A stretch of DNA of 21,537 nt, taken from IMG/VR virus record IMGVR_UViG_3300025674_000478, positions 1-21,537 of that record. One strand, 5' to 3'. This document shows positions 3,382-21,537 of this stretch, piece by piece. Source of the stretch: a virus. The translations under genes and the position numbers were made by a program. The first letter of the stretch is position 1; every line of letters starts with the position of its first letter. The notes under the pieces are model-generated. The model ran no database searches, was not told the DNA's origin, and saw nothing but the letters and a program-made list of their open reading frames with translations.

Positions 3382-3715
3382 GAAACTGCTTTCACTAAAA
3401 CCAACACCAAAGGAGGTCGAAGTGGAAGGTTTCGGTATTGTGTTCTTAAAGCCTTTGACTGAGTTGCTTCGTTCACGAAGATTGTCAGAGCTATTTGACG
3501 AAAAGGGGAAGTCTGACAAGACGACCCAAGAGAAGCGTCGAGCGAACATGATTATCGATCAAGTGTGCGATAAAGATGGCAACCCGATGTTTACTCAGGC
3601 GGATCTCAAGGACATCCTAGAACTGGATGGTGCGAAGCTCGATGAGCTTGTTCATGCGATCTTAGATTTCAATACGGATGATGAAAAAAAAGATCAGGGC
3701 GAGTCGAAAAGCTAA
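3362..3715 (+). CDS. Tail assembly chaperone, zero-frame product (lambda gpG-like)
   Basis: A 117-aa protein expected to coat or guide the tape measure protein during tail assembly. The pattern is that of siphophage tail chaperones: 'PKEVEVEGFGIVFLKPLTE' (a strand pair leading into a helix), 'EKRRANMIIDQVCDKDGNPMFTQADLKDILELDGAKLDELVHAILDFN' read as separate blocks, where the family has 'A..i...v.De.G.plFt..d...L......l..l...i...n'. I chose ATG 3362 over the upstream ATG 3323 because AGGGAG ends 9 bases before it. The 3' end holds an A-run and stem for -1 frameshifting, which extends this protein into a second domain. Position directly before the tape measure region supports the call. Confidence 0.82.
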   Translation: MTSLTREKLLSLKPTPKEVEVEGFGIVFLKPLTELLRSRRLSELFDEKGKSDKTTQEKRRANMIIDQVCDKDGNPMFTQADLKDILELDGAKLDELVHAILDFNTDDEKKDQGESKS

Positions 3716-3748
3716 TTAAGCATTTCAAAAGAAACCATCGACTACGCT
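3685..3748 (+). promoter_or_regulatory. Programmed -1 ribosomal frameshift signal (A AAA AAA plus stem)
   Basis: The slippery heptamer A_AAA_AAA is at 3685-3691, in phase with the chaperone codons (gaA AAA AAA G). Six bases further on, GGCGAGTCGA (3698-3707) can pair with TCGACTACGCT (3738-3748). This gives ten pairs, one of them G-U, with a bulged A at 3744. The zero-frame stop at 3713-3715 lies in the loop. Heptamer, 5-9 base spacer and stem are the standard elements of bacterial and phage -1 frameshift sites. The efficiency and any pseudoknot cannot be read by eye. Confidence 0.78.
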
Positions 3749-3939
3749 GGGCATTTATCGTCTGCCAGAAACTAAAGATAGATGACCCAGTTCATTGGAT
3801 GGATACTGTAAGTCCCACATTGCTCGACCAGTGGATTGCCTTCGAGATTGTTCAGCGGGATACCGGGGAGTCGTCATCGGGAGATCCTGAGGATGCTAGA
3901 GAACAACTCAATTCGATGGTGAAGCAATGGCAAAAATGA
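3691..3939 (+). CDS. -1 frame extension of tail assembly chaperone (gpT-like part of a gpGT fusion)
   Basis: This is an open frame one base behind the chaperone. It has no ATG near its start: the frame is closed by TGA at 3682-3684, immediately before the A-run. Entry is therefore only sensible by a -1 slip at 3685-3691. The extension reads RSGRVEKLIKHFKRNHRLRW and then 'AFIVCQKLKIDDPVHW', 'LLDQWIAFEIVQRDTGE', ending '...MVKQWQK' at TGA 3937-3939. The 'l...l......w......ll..W.afe' pattern is that of the T-part of siphophage chaperones. The fusion would be 110 + 82 = 192 residues. The end overlaps the next gene by 13 bases. The gap between the 117-aa gene and the gene at 3927 is explained entirely by this extension. 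Confidence 0.8.
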   Translation, partial: RSGRVEKLIKHFKRNHRLRWAFIVCQKLKIDDPVHWMDTVSPTLLDQWIAFEIVQRDTGESSSGDPEDAREQLNSMVKQWQK

Positions 3940-4463
3940 GAGCAGGCGTAGACATTGCTGGTCTAATGCAACAAGCATTAAAGAATGTTCAAAATGACAT
4001 TCAGTTAGCAATGCACAGGGAAGTCGCTGAGAAGCTAGGGATGGTAACTGCCATCACCATCCAAATGCAAATGCGTGCTAAGGGGATACGCAGAGCAAAA
4101 GCTACTGGTACGCATTTAAAGCGATCCGCAAAGGAGCAGGCAGCAGCAAACAGATATGGTTCCATGCTTGATACATACTACAAGGTATGGCGACAGCAGG
4201 ATATGAACAGAGACATGGTTTTTAGTGGGCAAACTCTTGCTTCTTATAAGGCTCGATTCAGGAATGATGGATGGAAGAACCATCATTACTGGGAAAAGAA
4301 AGGTCCGGGTAGCGGATCTGGCAATGATTATCCCGGTGAGCATTACATCGAAGCATCACAAAAGATTCTTCGCCGCGAAGCACCTAAATTGATTGCTGCC
4401 GTTGCAAGGCGAGTGCTTACACATCCAAAGTATTTCAAAGTCAAACACAAAGTCGGAGTTTAG
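3927..4463 (+). CDS. Unknown protein between tail chaperone and tape measure
   Basis: A 178-aa basic protein. It has an N-terminal helical stretch (GLMQQALKNVQNDIQLAMHREVAEKLG), a basic middle, 'YGSMLDTYYKVWRQQ', a glycine/aromatic stretch 'HHYWEKKGPGSGSGNDYPG', and a C-terminal helix 'ASQKILRREAPKLIAAVARR' followed by 'HPKYFK'. The final 'EHYI.AS.......p.l...va' has some feel of HK97 gp10-like neck proteins, whose genes normally lie further upstream, next to the tail terminator. Here the position is after the chaperone. I cannot settle whether it is a relocated neck protein or a separate tail-assembly factor. The ATG overlaps the frameshift extension by 13 bases. No enzyme motif or membrane segment is visible. 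Confidence 0.5.
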   Translation: MAKMRAGVDIAGLMQQALKNVQNDIQLAMHREVAEKLGMVTAITIQMQMRAKGIRRAKATGTHLKRSAKEQAAANRYGSMLDTYYKVWRQQDMNRDMVFSGQTLASYKARFRNDGWKNHHYWEKKGPGSGSGNDYPGEHYIEASQKILRREAPKLIAAVARRVLTHPKYFKVKHKVGV

Positions 4464-4472
4464 GAATCAAGG

Positions 4473-6545
4473 ATGGCAAAGACAACGAAACTAATCGGCT
4501 ACGGCATTAGCTTTGACATGAAGTTAGTTGGTGGAGTAAAGACCGCCGATGACTTTGCGAGGGCTGCTAAATCAGTACAAAAAAGCATCAACAAAAGCAC
4601 CGATGCGACAAAGCAACACAAGTTGCAGCTTGAGGTTTTGGATCAAGCTCTCAAGAAAAGCATTGTTACGCAAAAGCAGCATGACGAAGCTAGGTTCAGT
4701 GTTGAAGCAAAAGAAATAAAGAGACAGCAAAGGCTTGAAAAGGAACGTCGATTAGTACTTGGCTTAGATCAGCAGGAATCTCTACTTGCGAAGAACAGGC
4801 AGCAACGCGCACGCATGGCAGGAATGGCTGCTTCTGGTGTAAGTGGTCTAGGCATGGGAGGTGCTGCTGCTGGTGCTGCTAGGTTTTTGGGTGGTACGGT
4901 TGGGTTAGGTCTTGGTGCTGCTGGAATGGGTTTGGGATTTGTTGGTGCTGCTACTGTAAAAGCATCGATATCCGCTTTTGCAAAGCTAGAGTCTCAAGTT
5001 ACCGCGATGAAGTCGCTTTTCGGAGAGGATATAGCTGGTAATCTAAATACTCAATTTAGAGCATTAGCAAAGACAACTATTCTTACAAATAGTCAACTGA
5101 TTGAAAACGCTAAGACATGGGCTTCTTACGGCCTTACAACCGAAGGGCTGACGGACAGACTAAAAAGACTTGGTACTGTTGCTGGTGGTAACTCAGAAAA
5201 GTTCAGGGCATTGACGATTGCGTTCGCACAGGTCAATGCTCAGGGCAAGCTGATGGGTCAGGAAAAGAACCAGCTTATCAATGCTGGTATGTCTTTGTCT
5301 GCTGTTGCCGATGCTGCTGGAATTTCAATGGATCAGTTTGCTGATGCCATGAAGAATGGAGAAATTACAGCAGAACATCTAAATCAAGCTCTTGTGAATG
5401 TAACAAGCGAAGGTGGTCTGTTTGCAGGATACCTTGAAAAGCAGGCTGAGACTATCACTGGAAAGATGACTATTCTTTCTGCATCTTGGGAGGAGTTTTT
5501 AGTTGCACTAGGAGAATCAGAGCAAGGTCCGGCTTCTGTCATATTGGACAAGATGATCGACGCTGCTGTTGAATTGAAGGCAGCCGCAGAATGGTGGTCA
5601 GGGAAAGGTTCTCCACCTACTCCCGGAGTTGCAGGAGCGCAGGCAAGTCGATTTGCCGGAGGAATAGTAGACACAGGCGGTGCGCAGGCTACCTATGGAG
5701 CAAGAGGTGGCTTCATGGGAGGAATGGGAGGAGGACTTCAGCCGTCTGTTAATTCTGAATCTGAGCGAGAGCGTACTGCAAGAGAAGAAAGATTAAGGGC
5801 TTTGGCAGAAGAAGCGGAAGCTATTAAAAAGAGAGAGGCTGCCGAAAAGCAAGTTAATGATCTTTTGAAAAAACAATTCGAGCAGTACATGGATAACTTG
5901 CGTGCTGCTGAAGGCTTTATAGACAGAACTGGAAAGTCTTTTTCCATACCCGGACAGCCAACAAGATTAGAAAGGACTGGAACTAGCGTTATTTCTGACT
6001 TTGAACAGCAAGGTCTATTTGAAGAAGCAGAAAGAATTGGTGAAGTCTTTGGCGAATCTGCAATGAATCAGTTTAAGCAGTTCTTTCCAGAGGTGTTCAG
6101 CGAAACATTCAAGGATACATTTGTTGGACCGATGCCCAAAAGCCAATACGACTTGGCAAAAGAACGAGGGCTTGAGCAAAAAGAGCTTATGCTGAAGGAA
6201 GAAGCATTGCTTCTTGCAAAGATAGAAAACGAAAATCAAAAGTTCGACAAAGAAATGGAACTTCTGGATCAGCAAGAGAAGGAAGCTAAAGAAGAACTCG
6301 ATAAAGAAAGGAGGTTAGCCAAGGCTCCATCTCCTGTATCATTCAAGGCAGCGTCAGTTGAGGAGTTCATGTTCTTGCGTCAAATGACTCAGCGTAATGA
6401 AACCGCTGCTGCAATAAGGGAAGCTCAAGCAAAAAACGATGCAGTAATGAGGGAAATAGACGGAAACAGAAAGATTGCAGAACAAAGGCGTGAAGAGCAA
6501 ATTGAAAACCTTAGCTTGCGTATATCAGAGCTAGAGACAAAATAA
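4473..6545 (+). CDS. Tail tape measure protein
   Basis: A 690-aa protein that sets tail length and occupies the tail lumen. Residues ~25-110 are charged and helical. Residues ~115-165 are a hydrophobic Gly/Ala-rich stretch (GLGMGGAAAGAARFLGGTVG), as tape measures often carry. Residues ~170-350 match the tape measure N-terminal domain: 'LESQVTAMKSLFGEDIAGN', 'TQFRALAKTTILTNSQLIENA', 'FAQVNAQGKLMGQEKNQLIN', 'GMSLSAVADAAGI' and 'GEITAEHLNQALVNVTSEGG'. The rest is linker and long coiled coil (ESERERTAREERLRALAEEA and similar repeats near 540-690). No lytic transglycosylase or peptidase motif is visible. At the usual ~0.15 nm per residue a tail near 100 nm is inferred. It directly follows the chaperone region, as expected. 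Confidence 0.9.
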   Translation: MAKTTKLIGYGISFDMKLVGGVKTADDFARAAKSVQKSINKSTDATKQHKLQLEVLDQALKKSIVTQKQHDEARFSVEAKEIKRQQRLEKERRLVLGLDQQESLLAKNRQQRARMAGMAASGVSGLGMGGAAAGAARFLGGTVGLGLGAAGMGLGFVGAATVKASISAFAKLESQVTAMKSLFGEDIAGNLNTQFRALAKTTILTNSQLIENAKTWASYGLTTEGLTDRLKRLGTVAGGNSEKFRALTIAFAQVNAQGKLMGQEKNQLINAGMSLSAVADAAGISMDQFADAMKNGEITAEHLNQALVNVTSEGGLFAGYLEKQAETITGKMTILSASWEEFLVALGESEQGPASVILDKMIDAAVELKAAAEWWSGKGSPPTPGVAGAQASRFAGGIVDTGGAQATYGARGGFMGGMGGGLQPSVNSESERERTAREERLRALAEEAEAIKKREAAEKQVNDLLKKQFEQYMDNLRAAEGFIDRTGKSFSIPGQPTRLERTGTSVISDFEQQGLFEEAERIGEVFGESAMNQFKQFFPEVFSETFKDTFVGPMPKSQYDLAKERGLEQKELMLKEEALLLAKIENENQKFDKEMELLDQQEKEAKEELDKERRLAKAPSPVSFKAASVEEFMFLRQMTQRNETAAAIREAQAKNDAVMREIDGNRKIAEQRREEQIENLSLRISELETK

Positions 6546-8153: not shown

Positions 8154-8446
8154 TGGCACGAAAACCGCCTCCTGCGATGCACGACTGGGATTTCGTTGAA
8201 GATACCGGAGTCGAAAACTGCATTGCCTACACATCAAGCACAGGGATTCCTGCAAGGGCTGGCTCAGTCGCAGGAAAAGCAACTGATGTAAACCTTTACT
8301 ACATCGGAACCGATGGAACTCTGCTCGACGCAGGAACAAACCTGACGGTTTACAATCTATTTGGTACAGCAGTTGGCGGAGACACTTACATAACTTGCAA
8401 AAAAGTTGAGAGCGTATGGATCGTTGATGCGGAGGACTGCGGTTAA
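8153..8446 (+). CDS. Small beta-rich tail-region protein, unknown
   Basis: A 97-aa protein starting on the last base of the upstream stop codon and ending with the same kind of one-base overlap into the next gene. It contains 'MHDWDFVEDTGVENCIAYTS', 'KATDVNLYYIGTDGTLLDAG', 'LTVYNLFGTAVGGDTYITC' and 'VESVWIVDAEDCG', a regular alternation suggesting a small beta sandwich. Three cysteines (one in each of the first, third and last pieces). The tight coupling on both sides suggests it works with its neighbours, perhaps as a small fibre or adhesin-associated subunit. The family is not recognised. Confidence 0.55.
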   Translation: MARKPPPAMHDWDFVEDTGVENCIAYTSSTGIPARAGSVAGKATDVNLYYIGTDGTLLDAGTNLTVYNLFGTAVGGDTYITCKKVESVWIVDAEDCG

Positions 8447-10653
8447 TGGCTATTAAACACAGTCCGGGGTGTGGCTGCTGCGGTGGTGTAACAACCTGCT
8501 GCGAGACTATTGAGGTTAAACCGCTTCCGACTAGGACGGTGGTTGGTGGTGTTGCCAGCTACAGCGACACCACTTGGAATAGCAGTTACGTCACAGGCAT
8601 CAGCGGGACTGATAACACGGTTCCGGCTAATACGACGGTGACGATTGAGGTTCCAATCGGCTGTACCGATTATGTAGTTGATGTTGAGGTACTGGACGAT
8701 AATGGCGAGCTAACGACGAGCAGCGATCCGGGTCTTTTCATCAAGGTTGGCGACTGCTTGCAGGCAAGCAACGAACTGCCGCCAGTGACTCCAAGCTCGT
8801 TTTGGGATGGCAGCACTGTCTCGGATGACATTCAGTGGCCGCTGATCTACTCTCAGCACGATTGCAGGACTCTGGAGCGTGATAGTTTCAATCTTACTAA
8901 GACAACTATCACCAGACCGTTCTACGGTGACTTTTATGCTGCATACCGCTTCGCGGAGGTGTTCAACTCGGCTGCAATGGAGTCGAGAGTTGTGGCATAT
9001 CGTGCGCCACCTTGGAGGTCTGATACGAGTACGGACAAAGCAGACCAAGCAAGCACTATGAGACTTCCACATGATGCGGGGGGTCTTACTGTTCAGATCA
9101 CGATTCAAACCGGCGGAAGTCCAGTGGAGATCGGAGTAATTAAAGTTTACTCCGGCCATCGAGCATGTACGGCGATTAGCTCTCTTGATGATGTTCCGAT
9201 CACCGAGGACTGCAATTTAGACTTGGATGATTATTCGACCGCTCAGAACCCGTGGTATACCGTTACGAACCCAGCATCCTATATCGTAAACAATGGAGCA
9301 ACATCTCAAACAGCAAACAAAACTGGGCCAATTCTAAGTAGCGGAGGATGCAGCGACCCAGCTTGCGACTATGACTATTCAGCATCGCTGGATATGAGTT
9401 TCTGGACAGGTAATATTTCTTGGGTTTTGCGCAAAGCTGCGGGCCATGCTTATTATGAATATGACAGTAGTGATCCAATAGTCGGTGGATACGGTATAGG
9501 TGTTCCAGCAGCAGCTTATGCGGATGCTACAACAGCGGATGCAACTGCACTCGATGGGTACATCGCAAAGGTCGGAAACCACTCGTGGACGCACTCAGAC
9601 AGGCTAGTTGATTGGCGGGCGTATGCGTATGCCGAGCCAGATCTGGATGGCGATAACTACACCATAAGTCATTCGCTATCGGTGACGGGAACCTGTGATG
9701 TTGTGGCTTCATCGCAGGCAACCATAGACGCCATTCTTGACGTTTATAGAGAGGACAGGATTTACCCGAGTGGCGGGCCGTTGCTTTTGGGCATGCCATT
9801 AGGATCTTTCCCATGCGTATATCCTCCGAGGTTCTGCCCCGGTGATGCGCAGGTAAGTTATGACAGCATTTCATTAGGGCCGAATACACTTGCAGGAAGG
9901 CGGCATTGCCGTCCATTGATGCCACGAGGCGAGTTCTCAAGTAGCTATGGCGTCGAGAACTTTTGGAATCTGTCAGGGTCATTCGTTTATCCAGCAGCAA
10001 GTAACAGTGCAGCGGTTTCCAAAGAAATTAGCTTTATTCATTCCGCCGTGAGCGATACAACTGGAAACGCCTGCTACGACACTTACTCACGCAGCGCAAT
10101 AGATGTTGACGTCAGCGAAGATGCGACAATTACAAAGATTCCAACATACGATGCGAGCGACTCATCCGGTGCTACTGAATATCAACGCATCGGCGGGATA
10201 GGCTATGAGTTCATTCCGACGCGAGATCTGCATTTGCAGAACTTATCGCTGTATATCAACGACGAGTCTGCAACATTCACAGCGACCAACGGACTCGTGA
10301 TGCTGTATACGGCGATTAATTCGAGTTCGTACAGACCAGACTATGCTACTTGCGGATGCCCATGTACTGCGAGCGAGCTTTACTATGACGATCTGTTTAC
10401 TCTTGGAACCAGTTGCGTAAGCTATCATCGCTGGATGGAGTTCTCCGATGGCACAGACACTTGGTACGTTAAATGGGAGTCGGTATACGGTTTTCCGCTT
10501 TATACTTGGACTTTTCTTTTTAGAAGAAAAAGTGACTGCAAAGAAATAGAGTTCACAGGCGTCAGCAGTTCGCTACCAAGCACAACGAACCGAGTCAATA
10601 AAACAGCAACCAATGGTAACTCCGATACACTATCCATAGACGTTCTGACATGA
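8446..10653 (+). CDS. Large Cys-rich virion protein, putative tail fibre/adhesin
   Basis: A 735-aa protein, the largest in the window. It opens with a cysteine cluster (HSPGCGCCGGVTTCCETIEV), then a long beta-rich body with many Ser, Thr, Tyr and Asp and scattered cysteine pairs: 'DCRTLERD', 'SSGGCSDPACDYDYSASLDM', 'GTCDVVAS', 'FPCVYPPRFCPGDAQ', 'CGCPCTASELYYDD'. Near residue ~580, 'ATEYQRIGGIGYEFIPTRDL' and 'HLQNLSLYINDE' look like a jelly-roll or carbohydrate-binding segment. No transmembrane helix or lipobox is evident. Its size, composition and place after the tape measure suggest a host-contact fibre or tail-tip protein. From memory, CC-rich N-termini of this kind occur in planctomycete phage-like genes. 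Cysteines may bind metal or form disulfides. It overlaps the next start by four bases (ATGA). Confidence 0.58.
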   Translation: MAIKHSPGCGCCGGVTTCCETIEVKPLPTRTVVGGVASYSDTTWNSSYVTGISGTDNTVPANTTVTIEVPIGCTDYVVDVEVLDDNGELTTSSDPGLFIKVGDCLQASNELPPVTPSSFWDGSTVSDDIQWPLIYSQHDCRTLERDSFNLTKTTITRPFYGDFYAAYRFAEVFNSAAMESRVVAYRAPPWRSDTSTDKADQASTMRLPHDAGGLTVQITIQTGGSPVEIGVIKVYSGHRACTAISSLDDVPITEDCNLDLDDYSTAQNPWYTVTNPASYIVNNGATSQTANKTGPILSSGGCSDPACDYDYSASLDMSFWTGNISWVLRKAAGHAYYEYDSSDPIVGGYGIGVPAAAYADATTADATALDGYIAKVGNHSWTHSDRLVDWRAYAYAEPDLDGDNYTISHSLSVTGTCDVVASSQATIDAILDVYREDRIYPSGGPLLLGMPLGSFPCVYPPRFCPGDAQVSYDSISLGPNTLAGRRHCRPLMPRGEFSSSYGVENFWNLSGSFVYPAASNSAAVSKEISFIHSAVSDTTGNACYDTYSRSAIDVDVSEDATITKIPTYDASDSSGATEYQRIGGIGYEFIPTRDLHLQNLSLYINDESATFTATNGLVMLYTAINSSSYRPDYATCGCPCTASELYYDDLFTLGTSCVSYHRWMEFSDGTDTWYVKWESVYGFPLYTWTFLFRRKSDCKEIEFTGVSSSLPSTTNRVNKTATNGNSDTLSIDVLT

Positions 10654-11607: not shown

Positions 11608-12281
11608 GCGGATACCTGATAATAGGCGATACTCATTGCCCTACGATGCTTACTAATTACGTCGATTTCCTCAAGGAGATCCAGCGTAAGTACAAGATCA
11701 AACAAGATCATGTAATACACATAGGCGACTTGGTAGACCTACACTGTCTGTCTTTCCACAAAAAGACTCCAGAGCATGTTGCTGCTGACTTTGAATACAA
11801 GCGTGCATTGGTTCAGATCAGAACGCTTACCAAAGCGTTTCCAAAAGCAAAGATGCTCATGGGGAACCACGATGCTTTGCCGATGCGTCTTGCCGTCGAG
11901 ATAGGGCTTCCTACGAACTATCTAAAGAACTTCAACAATGTATTTGAGCTACCAAAAGGATGGCAGGTCTTTCCAAGGTATCATCAACTCATCATTGATA
12001 ATGTTCTTTACCAACATGGAGATCGAGGCAGGAACTCGGCTATCCTCAACGCCAAAAGTGAGTTCCGGCCAGTATGCCAAGGACATCATCACAGCAAGGC
12101 TGGCGTTGAGTTCTTTGCAAACTCAAAAGAACGAATATGGGCGATGCAAGTTGCATGTGGAGTTGACCACAGTACCGCCGCGATGTCCTATGGGTTGAAG
12201 TATTCTCAAAAGCCAATCATCGGTTGTGGTGTAGTTATGAATAATGGGGAGACACCCATCTTCGAGCCGATGCTCCTATGA
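11604..12281 (+). CDS. Calcineurin-like metallophosphoesterase
   Basis: A 225-aa binuclear metal phosphoesterase. All family motifs are present in order: Asp9-x-His11 in 'IIGDTHC', Gly41-Asp42-Leu-Val-Asp45, Gly87-Asn-His-Asp90, His138 in 'YQHGD', and Gly160-His-His-His163 ('CQGHHHS'). There is no signal peptide or membrane segment, so it acts in the cytoplasm. Substrate cannot be told from sequence; phage relatives include DNA end-processing nucleases and nucleotide or protein phosphatases. Overlap by ATGA with the resolvase-like gene and with the Band 7 gene suggests joint expression, and a DNA-processing role is inferred from that. An intact catalytic set makes an active enzyme likely. Confidence 0.85.
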   Translation: MSGYLIIGDTHCPTMLTNYVDFLKEIQRKYKIKQDHVIHIGDLVDLHCLSFHKKTPEHVAADFEYKRALVQIRTLTKAFPKAKMLMGNHDALPMRLAVEIGLPTNYLKNFNNVFELPKGWQVFPRYHQLIIDNVLYQHGDRGRNSAILNAKSEFRPVCQGHHHSKAGVEFFANSKERIWAMQVACGVDHSTAAMSYGLKYSQKPIIGCGVVMNNGETPIFEPMLL

Positions 12282-12793
12282 ACCTACTAGATCTGCTAAG
12301 TGCTTTCTTAGAACCTCTGCTCGACCTTATACCTCGTATTGCTCGTAGACCAGCGAGTAATGAATGGATGGTTGTGGATAGGCTCTTTAGAAGCGTTGTC
12401 ATCAAGAAAGTGCCGGTCATTCACTTTCCTTTTATCACACACATCGAGTATCTACCTAAGCACGAAATTCCTATCGACTGCGGACTGCAAAGAGTAACGA
12501 GTGCAGATCAACACTCAGTCGCGGTAAACGCTACTGCACTCATACAGATCATTGACCCTGTTGTTTGCAGAGACAAAGCCGCGCAGGATTACGAAGAAAC
12601 GGTATCGCTTATCATTCGATCAGTCGTTTGCGATATCGTGAGTAATCACAACTGGTCGCATGTCCAAGACCTAATGAACGACGGCCATGGGTTCGATGAG
12701 ATTTCCGAGTCAATCGAACGGTTCGGTATCGAACTAATCTCATTCAGGATCGAGGATTTGCAGCAGGTTTTGCCTATTTCTATGCTTCAATAA
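12278..12793 (+). CDS. SPFH/Band 7 domain protein
   Basis: A 171-aa protein with the SPFH (stomatin/prohibitin/HflKC) fold pattern. It has 'VPVIHFPFITHIEYLPKHEI', 'IDCGLQRVTSADQHSVAVNA' and 'ALIQIIDPV', where the family has 'D...lTsaD...v.v......ri.Dp', followed by helices 'ETVSLIIRSVVCDIVS' and 'IERFGIELISFRIEDLQQ'. The first ~20 residues are hydrophobic and amphipathic (LLDLLSAFLEPLLDLIPRIA) and could act as a peripheral membrane anchor; there is no full transmembrane helix. SPFH proteins form rings on membranes and often control proteases or membrane stability. The role in a phage is open: host membrane takeover, protease control or superinfection effects are possibilities. It ends the small metabolism operon. 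Confidence 0.72.
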   Translation: MNLLDLLSAFLEPLLDLIPRIARRPASNEWMVVDRLFRSVVIKKVPVIHFPFITHIEYLPKHEIPIDCGLQRVTSADQHSVAVNATALIQIIDPVVCRDKAAQDYEETVSLIIRSVVCDIVSNHNWSHVQDLMNDGHGFDEISESIERFGIELISFRIEDLQQVLPISMLQ

Positions 12794-17784: not shown

Positions 17785-17930
17785 CGACGACTATAGCGAT
17801 ATCTCACGGTCGCTTATCGGTCGTCGATTTGCGTTGTTACACACAAGAGCGAGTGTGCCGACCGAGCTTAGGCTTGTGGTGTTTTACAACGCAAAGGGAG
17901 TTCTATGAGATCCGAGAGTTTTCTAACTAA
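17778..17930 (+). CDS. Candidate 50-codon ORF with non-standard ATA start (uncertain)
   Basis: A perfect AGGAG (17766-17770) is followed, after seven bases, by ATA (17778) instead of ATG, and the frame then stays open for 50 codons to TAA at 17928-17930. The reading has no ATG and no recognised family; it begins ESTTIAISHGRLSVVDLRCY after the ATA. It overlaps the first 26 bases of the next gene in a different frame. The same DNA carries two perfect inverted repeats, which argues for a noncoding role. It may be a dead gene whose ATG became ATA, an unusual AUA start, or chance. I list it at low confidence. Confidence 0.15.
   Translation: MESTTIAISHGRLSVVDLRCYTQERVCRPSLGLWCFTTQREFYEIREFSN
17782..17895 (+). 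promoter_or_regulatory. Two abutting inverted repeats; structured noncoding region
   Basis: The 152-base gap holds two large inverted repeats, end to end. Repeat 1: AATCGACGAC (17782-17791) with GTCGTCGATT (17820-17829), a perfect 10-base match, with inner AGCGA/TCGCT (17795-17799/17810-17814). Repeat 2: TTTGCGTTGT (17828-17837) with ACAACGCAAA (17886-17895), also perfect, with inner CACACAAG pairing to CTTGTGGTG with one bulge. A small GATTT-GCT-AAATC hairpin lies at 17753-17765. Repeat 2 ends at the ribosome site (AGGGAG, 17895-17900) of the next gene. It could be an RNA element, a protein-binding operator, or a replication or packaging site. Which one cannot be told from sequence. Confidence 0.6.
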
Positions 17931-18219
17931 GCAGCAGCGTGACTCGACGCGAAAGATTGCTGCACGCAACTGGAACCGTATCAACGATCAGTTGCCTGAG
18001 TTTGGCGACGAATTTAAGCGTCGAGAAGTCAAACGTCTTATTAAGATCGACATAGAGCAAGATGTCAAAAAGAAGAAGAAGTTTGGAAGCCTCTTCACTT
18101 CTATTCTTGTCTCGATCATGCTTCGACTTGCGATGAAGTGGATCGAGCAATGGATCTCTCAAAAACTGTTCTCAGTCTCAGAATCAGGAGAGGGCGAAAA
18201 TGACCAAATTACGCGATAA
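17905..18219 (+). CDS. Small membrane protein, possible holin-like
   Basis: A 104-aa protein with a charged N-terminal domain (RDSTRKIAARNWNRINDQLP), a lysine cluster 'VKKKKK' at ~55-59 and one likely transmembrane helix at ~61-82 (GSLFTSILVSIMLRLAMKWI). The tail is acidic. One positive charge cluster before a single helix is a common inner-membrane topology. Together with the next two genes this looks like a lysis cassette, though the single helix with internal Arg and Lys is not a textbook holin. AGGGAG is five bases before the ATG. It overlaps the next gene by 20 bases. Membrane placement is likely; the role is inferred from position. Confidence 0.5.
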   Translation: MRSESFLTKQQRDSTRKIAARNWNRINDQLPEFGDEFKRREVKRLIKIDIEQDVKKKKKFGSLFTSILVSIMLRLAMKWIEQWISQKLFSVSESGEGENDQITR

Positions 18220-18940
18220 CAAAGCCTTCCAAACAGTCGTGGGAGGTGCGGTTCTCTACCTGACCTTCCGGCTATGGCAAGAGGGGTGGTTTGACAGACT
18301 GCTTAACAAAAATGAGTCCGAAGGGTTCGAGGGTCCAGAGGTATGGATTGCAGTCGGGCAGGCTTTGCTTTCCTTCGTTCAACTCGTTGGGATTATCACC
18401 ATCGGGATAGTCTCAGGCATCCTTCCGCACTTGGAGTCGATGCTAGAGTTCCTCGGAAAGCAACTTCGAGGCTTGTTTGACAAAGGCAAGGAGTTCGTCG
18501 CCAAGAACAAGGATGCACAACCGGGTGAACAATGGAACTGGAAGCCACTTGCGGCAATCGTTCTAAGTTGGTTCCTCTATGCGAATGGGATCCTTGGTGA
18601 AGCATGGGAAGTCATCAAAGACAACATTACCAATGAGGAGATACTTCCTGAGGGAAAGCCGGAGGCGGTGGCGTTCTTGATAGATCCGACCACCGCGACG
18701 AGCAATCAGATGGACGTTGTTTACAGTCAAAAGTTGGATCAATTCTTCGAGCAAAAGAAGATCGAACGGAGAACGATCTCCACGGATCAGAGCGTCGAGA
18801 TGGCGGAACCTTGGCTCAGGGAAATCGTGGATCGAAAGACCGGCGAGGGATCTTTACTGGCAATCTACTTCGAAAAAGATGATGTCAAATACATATCGAT
18901 CCCTGACACAATTCAAGACACCCAAAAGCTGTTTGACTAA
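18200..18940 (+). CDS. Membrane protein with three TM segments and a soluble C-terminus
   Basis: A 246-aa protein. Likely membrane helices are at ~11-27 (QTVVGGAVLYLTFRLW), ~48-75 (VWIAVGQALLSFVQLVGIIT and on) and ~116-134 (PLAAIVLSWFLYANGILG). An amphipathic segment lies between the second and third, and a ~100-aa charged domain follows (EAVAFLIDPT, 'DQFFEQKKIERRTISTDQSV', 'LLAIYFEKDDVKYISIPD'). The ribosome site AGGAGAGGG is well placed. It ends one base into the protease gene start (TAATG). It could be a lysis protein (holin, antiholin or spanin-like) or a phage membrane-exclusion protein; the family is not recognised. Confidence 0.5.
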   Translation: MTKLRDNKAFQTVVGGAVLYLTFRLWQEGWFDRLLNKNESEGFEGPEVWIAVGQALLSFVQLVGIITIGIVSGILPHLESMLEFLGKQLRGLFDKGKEFVAKNKDAQPGEQWNWKPLAAIVLSWFLYANGILGEAWEVIKDNITNEEILPEGKPEAVAFLIDPTTATSNQMDVVYSQKLDQFFEQKKIERRTISTDQSVEMAEPWLREIVDRKTGEGSLLAIYFEKDDVKYISIPDTIQDTQKLFD

Positions 18941-19677
18941 TGCGAAACCGATTCGGTCGTGGATACGTCGATAGAGATTACCAGTCGTTCCCTGAGTTCT
19001 CAGCGTATAAGGAGTATTCAGGAGGTCGCATACCGAGTTCCCAGTGGGCTGAACGGATCGATCATCTAAACAGCATTGGAGGTCAGCCATACCACTGGCA
19101 TCAGTCAGTTGGGCGTAAAGCTGTCTACAACCAGAAGTCCACTCCCTACTGCTGGATGTACGGAGTCTGCGGAGCGATCAACAATAGTCTAATCCGACAG
19201 GGTGTAGGTCATGTTGACCTCAATCCGTTTGCTACTGCTTACCTCGGCAAGAAAGGTCGGTTCCGAGGTGGATTCGGAATCGAGGCTTGCAGGTATATTC
19301 AGCAATGGGGAGTCCCTGAGAAAGACGATATTCCTGAGTTTCAGCGTAGTTTCAGGTGGCCGGAAGCAGCAAAACAAAGTGCTAGAAAACACCGGCTCGT
19401 CAGTTTTGAAGAATTACCAAAAAACTCGATGGAATCTGTGATAGATGCTATACTCGTCGAGCGATGTCCTGTGAGCGTAGCATTTAGCTGGTGGAAGCAC
19501 CTCGTATGCTGCTTAGGGGTTGCAAAAAGAGGTGATGAGTTCGGCTTGATCTGCCTTAATTCATGGGGTCCAAACTGGGGAGACAATGGATACACAACGC
19601 TCTGGGGAAACAAAGCAATCCCGTTTGAAGCGGTCGCAGTCAGACATGTTAGAAGCAGAGATGAATCAGACGACTAA
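18940..19677 (+). CDS. Papain-like (C1-type) cysteine protease, candidate lysis enzyme
   Basis: A 245-aa protein with a full papain-type catalytic set. 'NQKSTPYCWMYGVCGAI' carries Gln65 (oxyanion hole) and Cys71, six residues apart as in papain (Gln19, Cys25). 'WWKHLVCCLGVAKRGDEFG' carries His187 in place of papain's His159. 'LNSWGPNWGDNGY' carries Asn207 (papain Asn175) and the characteristic NSWG..WG..GY block. There is no signal peptide; the first ~60 residues could be a short propeptide or substrate-binding arm. Papain-like proteases are unusual in phages. Its place between membrane protein genes, where an endolysin normally lies, suggests host-wall or envelope protein cleavage. The alternative is processing of virion proteins. 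Family call is strong; role is inference. Confidence 0.88.
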   Translation: MRNRFGRGYVDRDYQSFPEFSAYKEYSGGRIPSSQWAERIDHLNSIGGQPYHWHQSVGRKAVYNQKSTPYCWMYGVCGAINNSLIRQGVGHVDLNPFATAYLGKKGRFRGGFGIEACRYIQQWGVPEKDDIPEFQRSFRWPEAAKQSARKHRLVSFEELPKNSMESVIDAILVERCPVSVAFSWWKHLVCCLGVAKRGDEFGLICLNSWGPNWGDNGYTTLWGNKAIPFEAVAVRHVRSRDESDD

Positions 19678-19807
19678 GAAGGATATCGCAAATAGCCTTT
19701 CTGAGTTGTCAGACAAGCTCAAAGCTAATAAAAGCCAAGCTGCGGATCGAATTTACAACGCCATTTTAATGTTTAACAAACAATACGATGACACAAATCC
19801 TAGCTAA
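19661..19807 (+). CDS. Small helical protein, unknown
   Basis: A 48-aa reading from ATG 19661 (NQTTKKDIANSLSELSDKLK and a helix 'QAADRIYNAILMFNKQ'). Longer starts exist at 19646 and 19586 in the same frame but lie deep inside the protease gene, and no candidate has a clear ribosome site. The sequence is a single amphipathic helical unit. It sits between the protease and the membrane gene at 19788, overlapping both. It may be a small lysis-block factor, but this is position only, and the gene itself is not certain. Confidence 0.4.
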   Translation: MNQTTKKDIANSLSELSDKLKANKSQAADRIYNAILMFNKQYDDTNPS

Positions 19808-20024
19808 CTTAGACCCCATGACCGTAACGACAGCACTTGTCGGAGGCATGGGTGCTTTATCGACAGCCGTTGTTCACCTGTACCGCAGTCAGTTTTCGCT
19901 GCAAAAAGACGTAAACGACAAGATCAGTCGTGAGCTTGCTGAGTGCAAGGATGACCGCCGGAGCTTGTGGCAAGCTGTATTGAAGATCGACCCATCAGCA
20001 GAAGAATTAAGGAATATTAAATGA
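19788..20024 (+). CDS. Small single-TM, coiled-coil protein (spanin- or holin-like)
   Basis: A 78-aa protein with a short N-terminus, one transmembrane helix at ~11-32 (MTVTTALVGGMGALSTAVVH) and a charged coiled-coil-like tail with one cysteine (DVNDKISRELAECKDDRRSL, Cys53). This TM-plus-coil shape is that of i-spanins and of many small phage lysis accessory proteins. No outer-membrane lipoprotein partner is visible nearby, so a spanin role is unproven. It overlaps the upstream gene by 20 bases and the next by ATGA. Start at ATG 19788 lacks a strong ribosome site, so coupling is probable. Confidence 0.55.
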   Translation: MTQILANLDPMTVTTALVGGMGALSTAVVHLYRSQFSLQKDVNDKISRELAECKDDRRSLWQAVLKIDPSAEELRNIK

Positions 20025-20599
20025 GCATCGACTACCTGAGACAAGTTGAGCCGCTGGAAGCTCAAGGACTTACAGATGCAGAGATTGCCTATAGCATCGC
20101 ACACCAGACGCTGCGACCGATGCCATGCTACGACTCTAAGCTAGTGCTGGAAGAACAGCAGTTGGTGCGTGAAGATCCAGTAAGCGGACAGCGTGAAGGA
20201 TCTCTGATTGCTCACTATCAAGCGATGACTGATCCAGTTCTAAAGTCTTTGACTGGCTGGTACATCAGTCACGTTTTCGGACGTGGCGAGAATGTGAACT
20301 CGCACGAGTATCCAAGAAGCTCTCAAGTGGCGATGGTCATGGCAGATCTTCCGGCTGAAATGCAGCCTGCTTGCGATCAGTTAATTGCTCTCGGTGGTGG
20401 CAAGCCGTTTGCAGGAACAGTGGAAGCGGACATCGTTGCGAGTCGCAATCAGCACGCTGCGGATCTAGCGGAGCAACAGCGACAAAGTGAGATCATCGCA
20501 TTGCAAGCAGAGATCGAGAACACTTGGGTTAATCCGGCAATCAGCGATGGCATTTCTACTGCGGATCAAGTGCGCGCGAGCATTAAGGCGGGACTGTAG
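20021..20599 (+). CDS. Hypothetical protein between lysis and tail-spike genes
   Basis: A 192-aa, mostly helical protein of no recognised family. It begins with 'YLRQVEPLEAQGLTDAEIAY', continues with 'MTDPVLKSLTGWYISHVFGR', and has a charged helical stretch 'HAADLAEQQRQSEIIALQAE' near the end. No membrane segment, cysteine cluster or catalytic motif is evident. It is joined to the upstream gene by ATGA and its stop codon is directly followed by the ATG of the beta-helix gene, so the three appear co-expressed. A chaperone or adaptor for the downstream spike is possible; this is inference from position only. Confidence 0.5.
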   Translation: MSIDYLRQVEPLEAQGLTDAEIAYSIAHQTLRPMPCYDSKLVLEEQQLVREDPVSGQREGSLIAHYQAMTDPVLKSLTGWYISHVFGRGENVNSHEYPRSSQVAMVMADLPAEMQPACDQLIALGGGKPFAGTVEADIVASRNQHAADLAEQQRQSEIIALQAEIENTWVNPAISDGISTADQVRASIKAGL

Positions 20600-21537
20600 A
20601 TGGCGTTCAACGAAAAGTACGTTACCGTCACCGGCGGTGGTCTGCACGATGGATCATCTGAGGCTAATGCTTGGACGTTGGCGGAGGGTGTAGCAAATTA
20701 TGCGGCGGGTGACAGAGTAAACGTAAAGGCTGGGACGTACACGGCATCGAGTGCAATAACTTGGTCAACAAGCGGCGGACAGTTTACGCCAATTCACTGG
20801 CGAGGATATAAAACTTCGATAGGAGATTTGGACGACTTGCCTACGGTTCAGAGAGTCGAGGCAACAGACATGCCTTTCTTCGACAATACGGATCGTTTCT
20901 ATATTCCTGCTGCAAATGTAGCGTTTTCAAACATCAGTTTTGAATCTGATTTTTCGGCAGCGGGCGTTCAGACCGGAGGAAAAAGCGTTCATTTTTTTAG
21001 ATGCAGGATGGTAACAAAATCCACCTCATCGACAGCTAGAGCATTTCTTGGTGCCGGAACCTACAATGTTTTAACCGCATGTTATTTTGAGGCTCCATCT
21101 ACGGCGGATGTGACTGTATGGATCTACCAAGGAGGCGCGGCAGCGAGGATTTTGGACTGCTTTATAACTGGCGGAACTATAGGATTAAAAATCTATCCTT
21201 ACACCTATGCTGTTGTTTGTAATACGATAATCACAAACTCAGCAACAAATGCAGTTTCTTTTATTGGGACAGTTCCAGCATTTTTCAGGAGTTGTGTTTT
21301 TCATAACTCTGGCGGGGATTTAGTGTCCGCAGGAAACGCAGACGGTAACGCTCCTTGCAGCATATCTAGTTGCGTTTTTTCCGATGCCGGTGGATACGCG
21401 ATCAATCAAACCACTGGATCAGAAACGCCATTCGTCATGCTTTCAGACAATTTGTATTACGATTCAAGTTTCACAAGCGGTAGAACCAACAACATTGTTT
21501 ACGATTTTTACCCGACCGTTGATACAGCATCGCCATT
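20600..21537 (+). CDS. Right-handed beta-helix protein, probable tail spike (3' partial)
   Basis: A reading frame starting immediately after the upstream TAG and still open at the end of the window (312 complete codons, 3' end missing). The start 'KYVTVTGGGLHDGSSEANAW', then 'AEGVANYAAGDRVNVKAGTY', is the usual opening of parallel beta-helix proteins of the pectate-lyase-like fold. Repeated rungs follow, with 'ANVAFSNISFES', 'TYNVLTACYFEAP', 'ARILDCFITGG', 'YAVVCNTIITNSATNAVSFI' and 'PAFFRSCVFHNSGGDLV', spaced at about one turn. Such folds serve as receptor-binding or polysaccharide-cleaving spikes in phages. No catalytic triad can be named here. It follows the lysis genes, away from the other tail genes. 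Confidence 0.75.
   Translation, partial: MAFNEKYVTVTGGGLHDGSSEANAWTLAEGVANYAAGDRVNVKAGTYTASSAITWSTSGGQFTPIHWRGYKTSIGDLDDLPTVQRVEATDMPFFDNTDRFYIPAANVAFSNISFESDFSAAGVQTGGKSVHFFRCRMVTKSTSSTARAFLGAGTYNVLTACYFEAPSTADVTVWIYQGGAAARILDCFITGGTIGLKIYPYTYAVVCNTIITNSATNAVSFIGTVPAFFRSCVFHNSGGDLVSAGNADGNAPCSISSCVFSDAGGYAINQTTGSETPFVMLSDNLYYDSSFTSGRTNNIVYDFYPTVDTASP

Follow-up and report, generated by a model that had tools for sequence, protein, structure and literature searches.

We analyzed a virus-derived stretch of 21,537 nucleotides that comprises the whole of the IMG/VR record IMGVR_UViG_3300025674_000478 (hereafter the window) and is possibly a fragment of its genome. The window carries the gene set of a tailed phage, including genes for an HK97-type capsid, connectors, a tail tube and a TMP_3 tape measure, with phosphoesterase, SPFH, AAA_24, DUF669 and SF2 helicase genes downstream of the tail genes. 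Here we consider an open reading frame (ORF) at positions 18940–19677, which encodes a papain-like C1 cysteine peptidase (C1 below) and lies among genes for membrane proteins. An earlier reading of the sequence alone (the original prediction) had proposed that this gene group is a lysis cassette in which the protease stands where an endolysin would be expected. The genes of the cassette in the window are:

17905–18219, + strand: gene A, 104 amino acids (aa), charged towards the N-terminus and with a single hydrophobic helix at the C-terminal end (Kyte–Doolittle maximum 1.52 at residues 62–80; homologues); candidate holin-like or anchor component
18200–18940, + strand: gene B, a 246-aa membrane protein with 2–3 hydrophobic helices and a soluble thioredoxin-like domain (AlphaFold2, Foldseek, alignments)
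18940–19677, + strand: papain-like C1 cysteine peptidase (PF00112, AlphaFold2 model and PDB matches, catalytic residues)
19788–20024, + strand: gene E, 78 aa, one moderately hydrophobic helix (Kyte–Doolittle 1.52 at residues 11–29) with a coiled-coil-like part after it; candidate for an Rz-like or holin-like role

Identity of the C1 peptidase

The C1 gene encodes a protein of 245 aa from an ATG codon, and its start overlaps the stop codon of the upstream gene B (TAATG). The Pfam profile Peptidase_C1 (PF00112) matches the protein with E = 2.2e-8 and 34.9 bits against a gathering cut-off of 20.7, and phmmer comparisons with chymopapain and cathepsin K yield about 1e-5 to 6e-5; some relatives of the window protein fall below the Pfam cut-off. 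Gln65, Cys71, His187 and Asn207 are present in this order, as originally stated, and the NSWG motif begins the segment NSWGPNWGDNGY at residues 207–218. Among 21 homologues only 10 columns are invariant, and the four catalytic residues (Q65, C71, H187 and N207) are among them. For C1 compared with its closest relative, the ratio of nonsynonymous to synonymous substitution rates (dN/dS) is about 0.11, with dS near saturation. The AlphaFold2 model adopts a cathepsin fold with a mean predicted local distance difference test score (pLDDT) of 92.1 and a predicted template modelling score (pTM) of 0.90. In the PDB it is most similar to procathepsin K and further C1 enzymes, with template modelling scores of about 0.6–0.7 by target length (mature chains), and it also matches other phage C1 proteins in BFVD. 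The assignment to the C1 (papain) family made in the original prediction is therefore borne out by Pfam, phmmer and the catalytic residues, and the predicted structure agrees with it. The ORF encodes a C1 peptidase with intact catalytic residues, for which proteolysis itself is predicted.

The protein shares the fold, the catalytic Gln/Cys/His/Asn and the NSWG motif with cathepsin K and papain (Peptidase C1A), but differs from them in being phage-encoded, in having only about 20% identity to them and in its N-terminus. No signal peptide or hydrophobic N-terminus was found in the 245 aa, nor a classical inhibitory propeptide, as only about 50 residues precede the catalytic region. These two elements are typical of cathepsins and are not required for the C1 family. 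Peptidase_C1 is the sole Pfam match, and the Pfam search recovered neither a known muralytic domain nor a cell-wall-binding domain within the protein. The latter is also absent from many endolysins of phages of Gram-negative bacteria.

Conservation and movement of the cassette

Relatives were gathered by IMG/VR searches with growing alignments, and gene order was derived from profile searches. The same C1 subfamily occurs in over 20 diverse phage contigs, in which the membrane/protease/membrane order expected from the original prediction is conserved: genes follow each other as A, B, C1, often D, and then E, with gene F and fibre genes next. Family A proteins are ~100 aa long with one transmembrane helix, those of family B are ~246 aa long, family E combines a transmembrane segment with a coil, and gene D, found in relatives, encodes a small secreted or anchored protein. 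Gene B is present in all 22 loci with a visible upstream side, in 20 of these 22 it is immediately preceded by gene A, and E was found in 20 of 21; the counts include some near-copy loci. A scan with gene B matched only contigs already carrying C1, together with one contig that ends 192 bases after B, and it recovered no locus where a classical endolysin takes the place of C1 in the cassette. The genes that follow the cassette in the window are:

20021–20599, + strand: gene F, 192 aa, after the cassette and before the fibre genes (homologues at the equivalent position in L041, L055, L057 and G010)
20600–21535, + strand: first part of a right-handed beta-helix protein, probably a tail fibre or spike, truncated by the window end (Pfam Beta_helix, E = 2.9e-5)

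In siphovirus-like genomes such as the window and G010, the cassette comes after the helicase gene; in podovirus-like genomes it is flanked by the portal gene and the fibre genes. Its presence in these otherwise unrelated genomes indicates that it has moved as a unit. The tree of C1 proteins requires at least two switches between the siphovirus-like and podovirus-like genome types on well-supported branches. The region of genes E and F (19788–20599 in the window) is 92–95% identical in DNA to positions 6001–6812 of L055 and 636–1447 of L041, whereas the C1 proteins encoded just upstream in these two contigs are only about 46–50% identical to that of the window. This places a sharp recombination boundary between C1 and E/F.

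Of the three flanking proteins originally described as small membrane proteins, those encoded at 17905 and 19788 fit the description with one helix each, while the one at 18200 has 246 aa and is not small. In the AlphaFold2 model of this protein, the product of gene B, the membrane part is poor and residues 151–246 are fair, with block pLDDT values of 74–89 and secondary structure elements in the order b-a-b-a-b-b-a. This domain (at about residues 151–246) matches thioredoxins in Foldseek weakly, with E values of only 1e-2, and has no CxxC motif. In several relatives gene B is represented by two genes, one encoding a membrane protein and the other a thioredoxin-like one. The L064 member of gene E has weak matches to holin-like (E = 5e-4) and Rz-like (3.5e-3) PHROGs. 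The protein at position D is a Pfam thioredoxin bearing a signal peptide in G002 and, by sequence, a secreted CxxC protein in L064; sequence comparison shows no relation between gene B and the secreted thioredoxin D. Directly upstream of gene A, L064 (8208–8963) and L065 (8175–8969) encode a secreted Trypsin_2 protease with a signal peptide.

More distant C1 genes were observed in L007 (9030–10848), L005 (1–1526) and L044 (2939–4569), each with a proline-rich protein encoded upstream (a signal peptide is visible in L007). A large-terminase-like gene lies nearby in L005 and L044, and a coil/transmembrane protein follows C1 in L007. The layout of these loci is similar, but homology of their C1 neighbours to gene B is not claimed: hhalign gives no significant match (probability 2.5%).

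A candidate lysis role and its alternatives

Double-stranded DNA phages are described as lysing their hosts by means of an endolysin, a holin and a spanin. Using Pfam, we found no peptidoglycan hydrolase family in any scanned ORF of the window, as originally noted, or in 230 ORFs of five large relatives (38 in G010, 45 in G002, 40 in G022, 52 in G026 and 55 in G019). A 3628-aa protein and a tape measure were scanned as well, and neither contains such a hydrolase. A recognisable endolysin elsewhere, which would speak against the protease as lysis enzyme, was thus not encountered in these relatives.

Gene content and order lead us to propose, with moderate confidence, that C1 is the catalytic component of a phage lysis (envelope-breaching) cassette, its role, export route and substrate being deduced from sequence. 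Lacking a signal peptide, C1 would be synthesized in the cytoplasm and would accumulate there. The small membrane proteins A and E, encoded near membrane protein B, might serve as holin- or spanin-like parts, and by opening or reorganizing the inner membrane the membrane proteins would allow C1 to reach the periplasm. There it could cleave a peptide-containing load-bearing layer, for which envelope protein, S-layer protein and the peptide moiety of peptidoglycan are candidates. In some relatives, the secreted trypsin-like protease would cut envelope proteins as well, and the secreted thioredoxin-like protein would reduce them; the occurrence of both kinds of protein in some members would fit a protein substrate held by disulfides.

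Since the window C1 matches none of 50,697 phage records, known phage C1 genes were sought via a different C1 subfamily (L009). The Gordonia phages Aleemily, ObLaDi and Cafasso (ON970578) were found to have a cysteine protease in their lysis cassettes, and in Aleemily a C1-type protease of similar size is encoded between lysin A and the holin, directly before the holin and a membrane protein. These phages differ from ours in carrying two lysin A genes (C39 and amidase) and a lysin B, and in infecting an actinobacterial host with mycolic acids; the match was obtained via L009. In Thermoanaerobacterium phage THSA-485A, the gene for a C1A papain (AFK87691) likewise adjoins that of a lysis enzyme, but that enzyme is a GH25 lysozyme carrying a peptidoglycan-binding domain, and no B-type membrane gene was recognised. 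The predicted endolysin CDS0095 of Alicyclobacillus phage MMB025 (PMC13141910) contains a C1 domain within a 753-aa fusion with a glycoside-hydrolase-like part and PG_binding_1, whereas the window protein is a lone C1 domain. The pseudomurein endoisopeptidases PeiW and PeiP of archaeal viruses are comparable as viral lytic enzymes that cut peptide bonds, as described in a 2025 review on the lytic proteins of prokaryotic viruses (PMC12596118), but they act on pseudomurein in archaeal hosts and are likened here by description, not by homology. Phage C1 peptidases and their occurrence in lysis modules are therefore already known, and C1 in a lysis setting is a recurring theme, but as an addition to a peptidoglycan hydrolase. 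The original proposal of a lysis cassette gains support from the conserved gene order, the lack of a recognised endolysin and the presence of C1 in annotated lysis modules elsewhere, with the lysis role itself staying conjectural. A keyword search of the 2025 review did not bring up cysteine proteases among lytic proteins, and the literature searched yielded no conserved mobile B–C1 cassette that lacks a recognisable peptidoglycan hydrolase.

Several observations weigh against a lysis role. In every annotated lysis precedent C1 is found in addition to a peptidoglycan hydrolase, not in its place. No recognised holin or spanin is present among A, B, D and E, where only weak hits were obtained. 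The cassette adjoins fibre genes, which is compatible with a role in the virion, and other phage C1 genes, in T4-like marine contigs and in L002, also lie beside fibre genes. Together with the position of C1 among tRNA genes in Streptomyces phage Sycamore, the arrangement in the T4-like contigs indicates that C1 is not linked to lysis everywhere. Finally, it is possible that an endolysin is encoded in a missing record end or is too divergent for Pfam. We regard the case for a missing endolysin as strong but not final, since the completeness of the records is not demonstrable, no large terminase is visible in G002 and some large ORFs fell outside the scans. In the T4-like contig L047, inspection by eye suggests a SleB-like cell-wall hydrolase (3439–4077) near the C1 gene; judging by these sequences, the two may coexist there.

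A narrower form of the lysis proposal, with which its probability overlaps, is that C1 is a strict endolysin, with stem or cross-link peptides in peptidoglycan as its target. Muralytic and peptidoglycan-binding domains are found alongside C1 domains and in fusions with them, and the wider papain-like superfamily includes peptidoglycan amidases and endopeptidases (PMC10318531). The closest folds of the window protein, however, are protein endopeptidases (cathepsins) and not CHAP or NlpC enzymes, the protein lacks a cell-wall-binding domain, and the helper trypsin-like and thioredoxin-like proteins of some cassettes point to protein substrates, so that we consider a strict endolysin unlikely.

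We give a similarly low probability to the alternative that A–B–C1(–D–E) forms a membrane complex with which the phage would take over the host, exclude superinfection or counter host defences, C1 degrading host membrane or defence proteins during infection. A protease that starts in the cytoplasm for want of a signal peptide would suit such a role, as would the many membrane proteins, the SPFH protein and the position of the cassette after replication genes in siphovirus-like genomes. In podovirus-like genomes, on the other hand, the cassette is placed among structural genes, from portal to fibres, which suggests late expression. Its retention while the rest of the genome is exchanged would be unusual for accessory genes, and this alternative would leave the records without any visible lysis enzyme.

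It also seems to us quite improbable that C1 is a virion- or tail-associated enzyme, engaged in fibre or tail processing or in clearing envelope protein at entry, with the neighbouring membrane genes forming a separate unit. Gene F and fibre-like genes do follow the cassette in most contigs that are long enough, the fibre genes next to C1 in the T4-like contigs and L002 are long tail-fibre genes, and the tail genes of Bacillus phages include papain-like amidases (PMC9703825). Against this, the invariant partner of C1 is the overlapping membrane protein B and no fibre gene. The near-identity of E/F in the window, L055 and L041, as opposed to about 50% identity of C1, indicates that C1 and the fibre module are not closely co-evolving, and head maturation belongs to a ClpP-type protease. 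Contig L017, in which 12,663 bases are 100% identical to the window, adds a portal fragment and the gene for this ClpP-type prohead protease at its left end (families assigned via G010 orthologues). As this gene precedes the capsid gene in both G010 and L017 and fills the role, C1 was rejected as a prohead (maturation) protease, and the proposed lysis role survives this challenge from the original prediction.

If C1 acts in lysis, the cassette might represent a separate strategy in which proteolysis replaces peptidoglycan hydrolysis, with disulfide reduction in some members, directed at a protein-stabilized envelope, possibly that of planctomycetes or of another group whose protein wall is rich in cystine. 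We advance this only tentatively. PMC3035269, citing Liesack et al. 1986, describes planctomycete envelopes as resistant to sodium dodecyl sulfate, rich in proline and cysteine and stabilized by disulfides; peptidoglycan, too, is now known from planctomycetes (PMC5394234). The idea of a protein-rich envelope as target is plausible only if the host is a planctomycete. Two scans of GTDB genomes with C1 alignments recovered no relatives, and neither cultured phages (INPHARED) nor plasmids (PLSDB) contained a match to C1, B, D or the podovirus portal. These searches speak neither for nor against a planctomycete host, and the planctomycete link is a hypothesis only. A mobile protease cassette without a recognisable peptidoglycan hydrolase would, if true, be a new solution to lysis and a clue to host envelopes that depend on protein. 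It would also serve to mark a large group of uncultured phages that have no relatives in culture, and it is a defined small gene unit suited to cloning.

Other features of the window and related records

One further gene of the window recurs in cassette-bearing phages:

12278–12793, + strand: SPFH/Band_7 domain protein (Pfam PF01145, E = 1.6e-8)

Its homologues are present in four siphovirus-like cassette records (G010, G002, L064 and L065), and in G002 the gene lies directly upstream of the cassette; a tie between the SPFH protein and the cassette is uncertain. A 735-aa protein of the tail region (8446–10653) has a cysteine cluster at its N-terminal start (MAIKHSPGCGCC) and matched no PHROG and nothing convincing in Pfam. 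The 63 kb record G025 contains two different portal genes (L079, 1570–5754; L082, 3694–5739), one of them with a terminase-like gene, and would represent either a chimeric assembly or two related phages.
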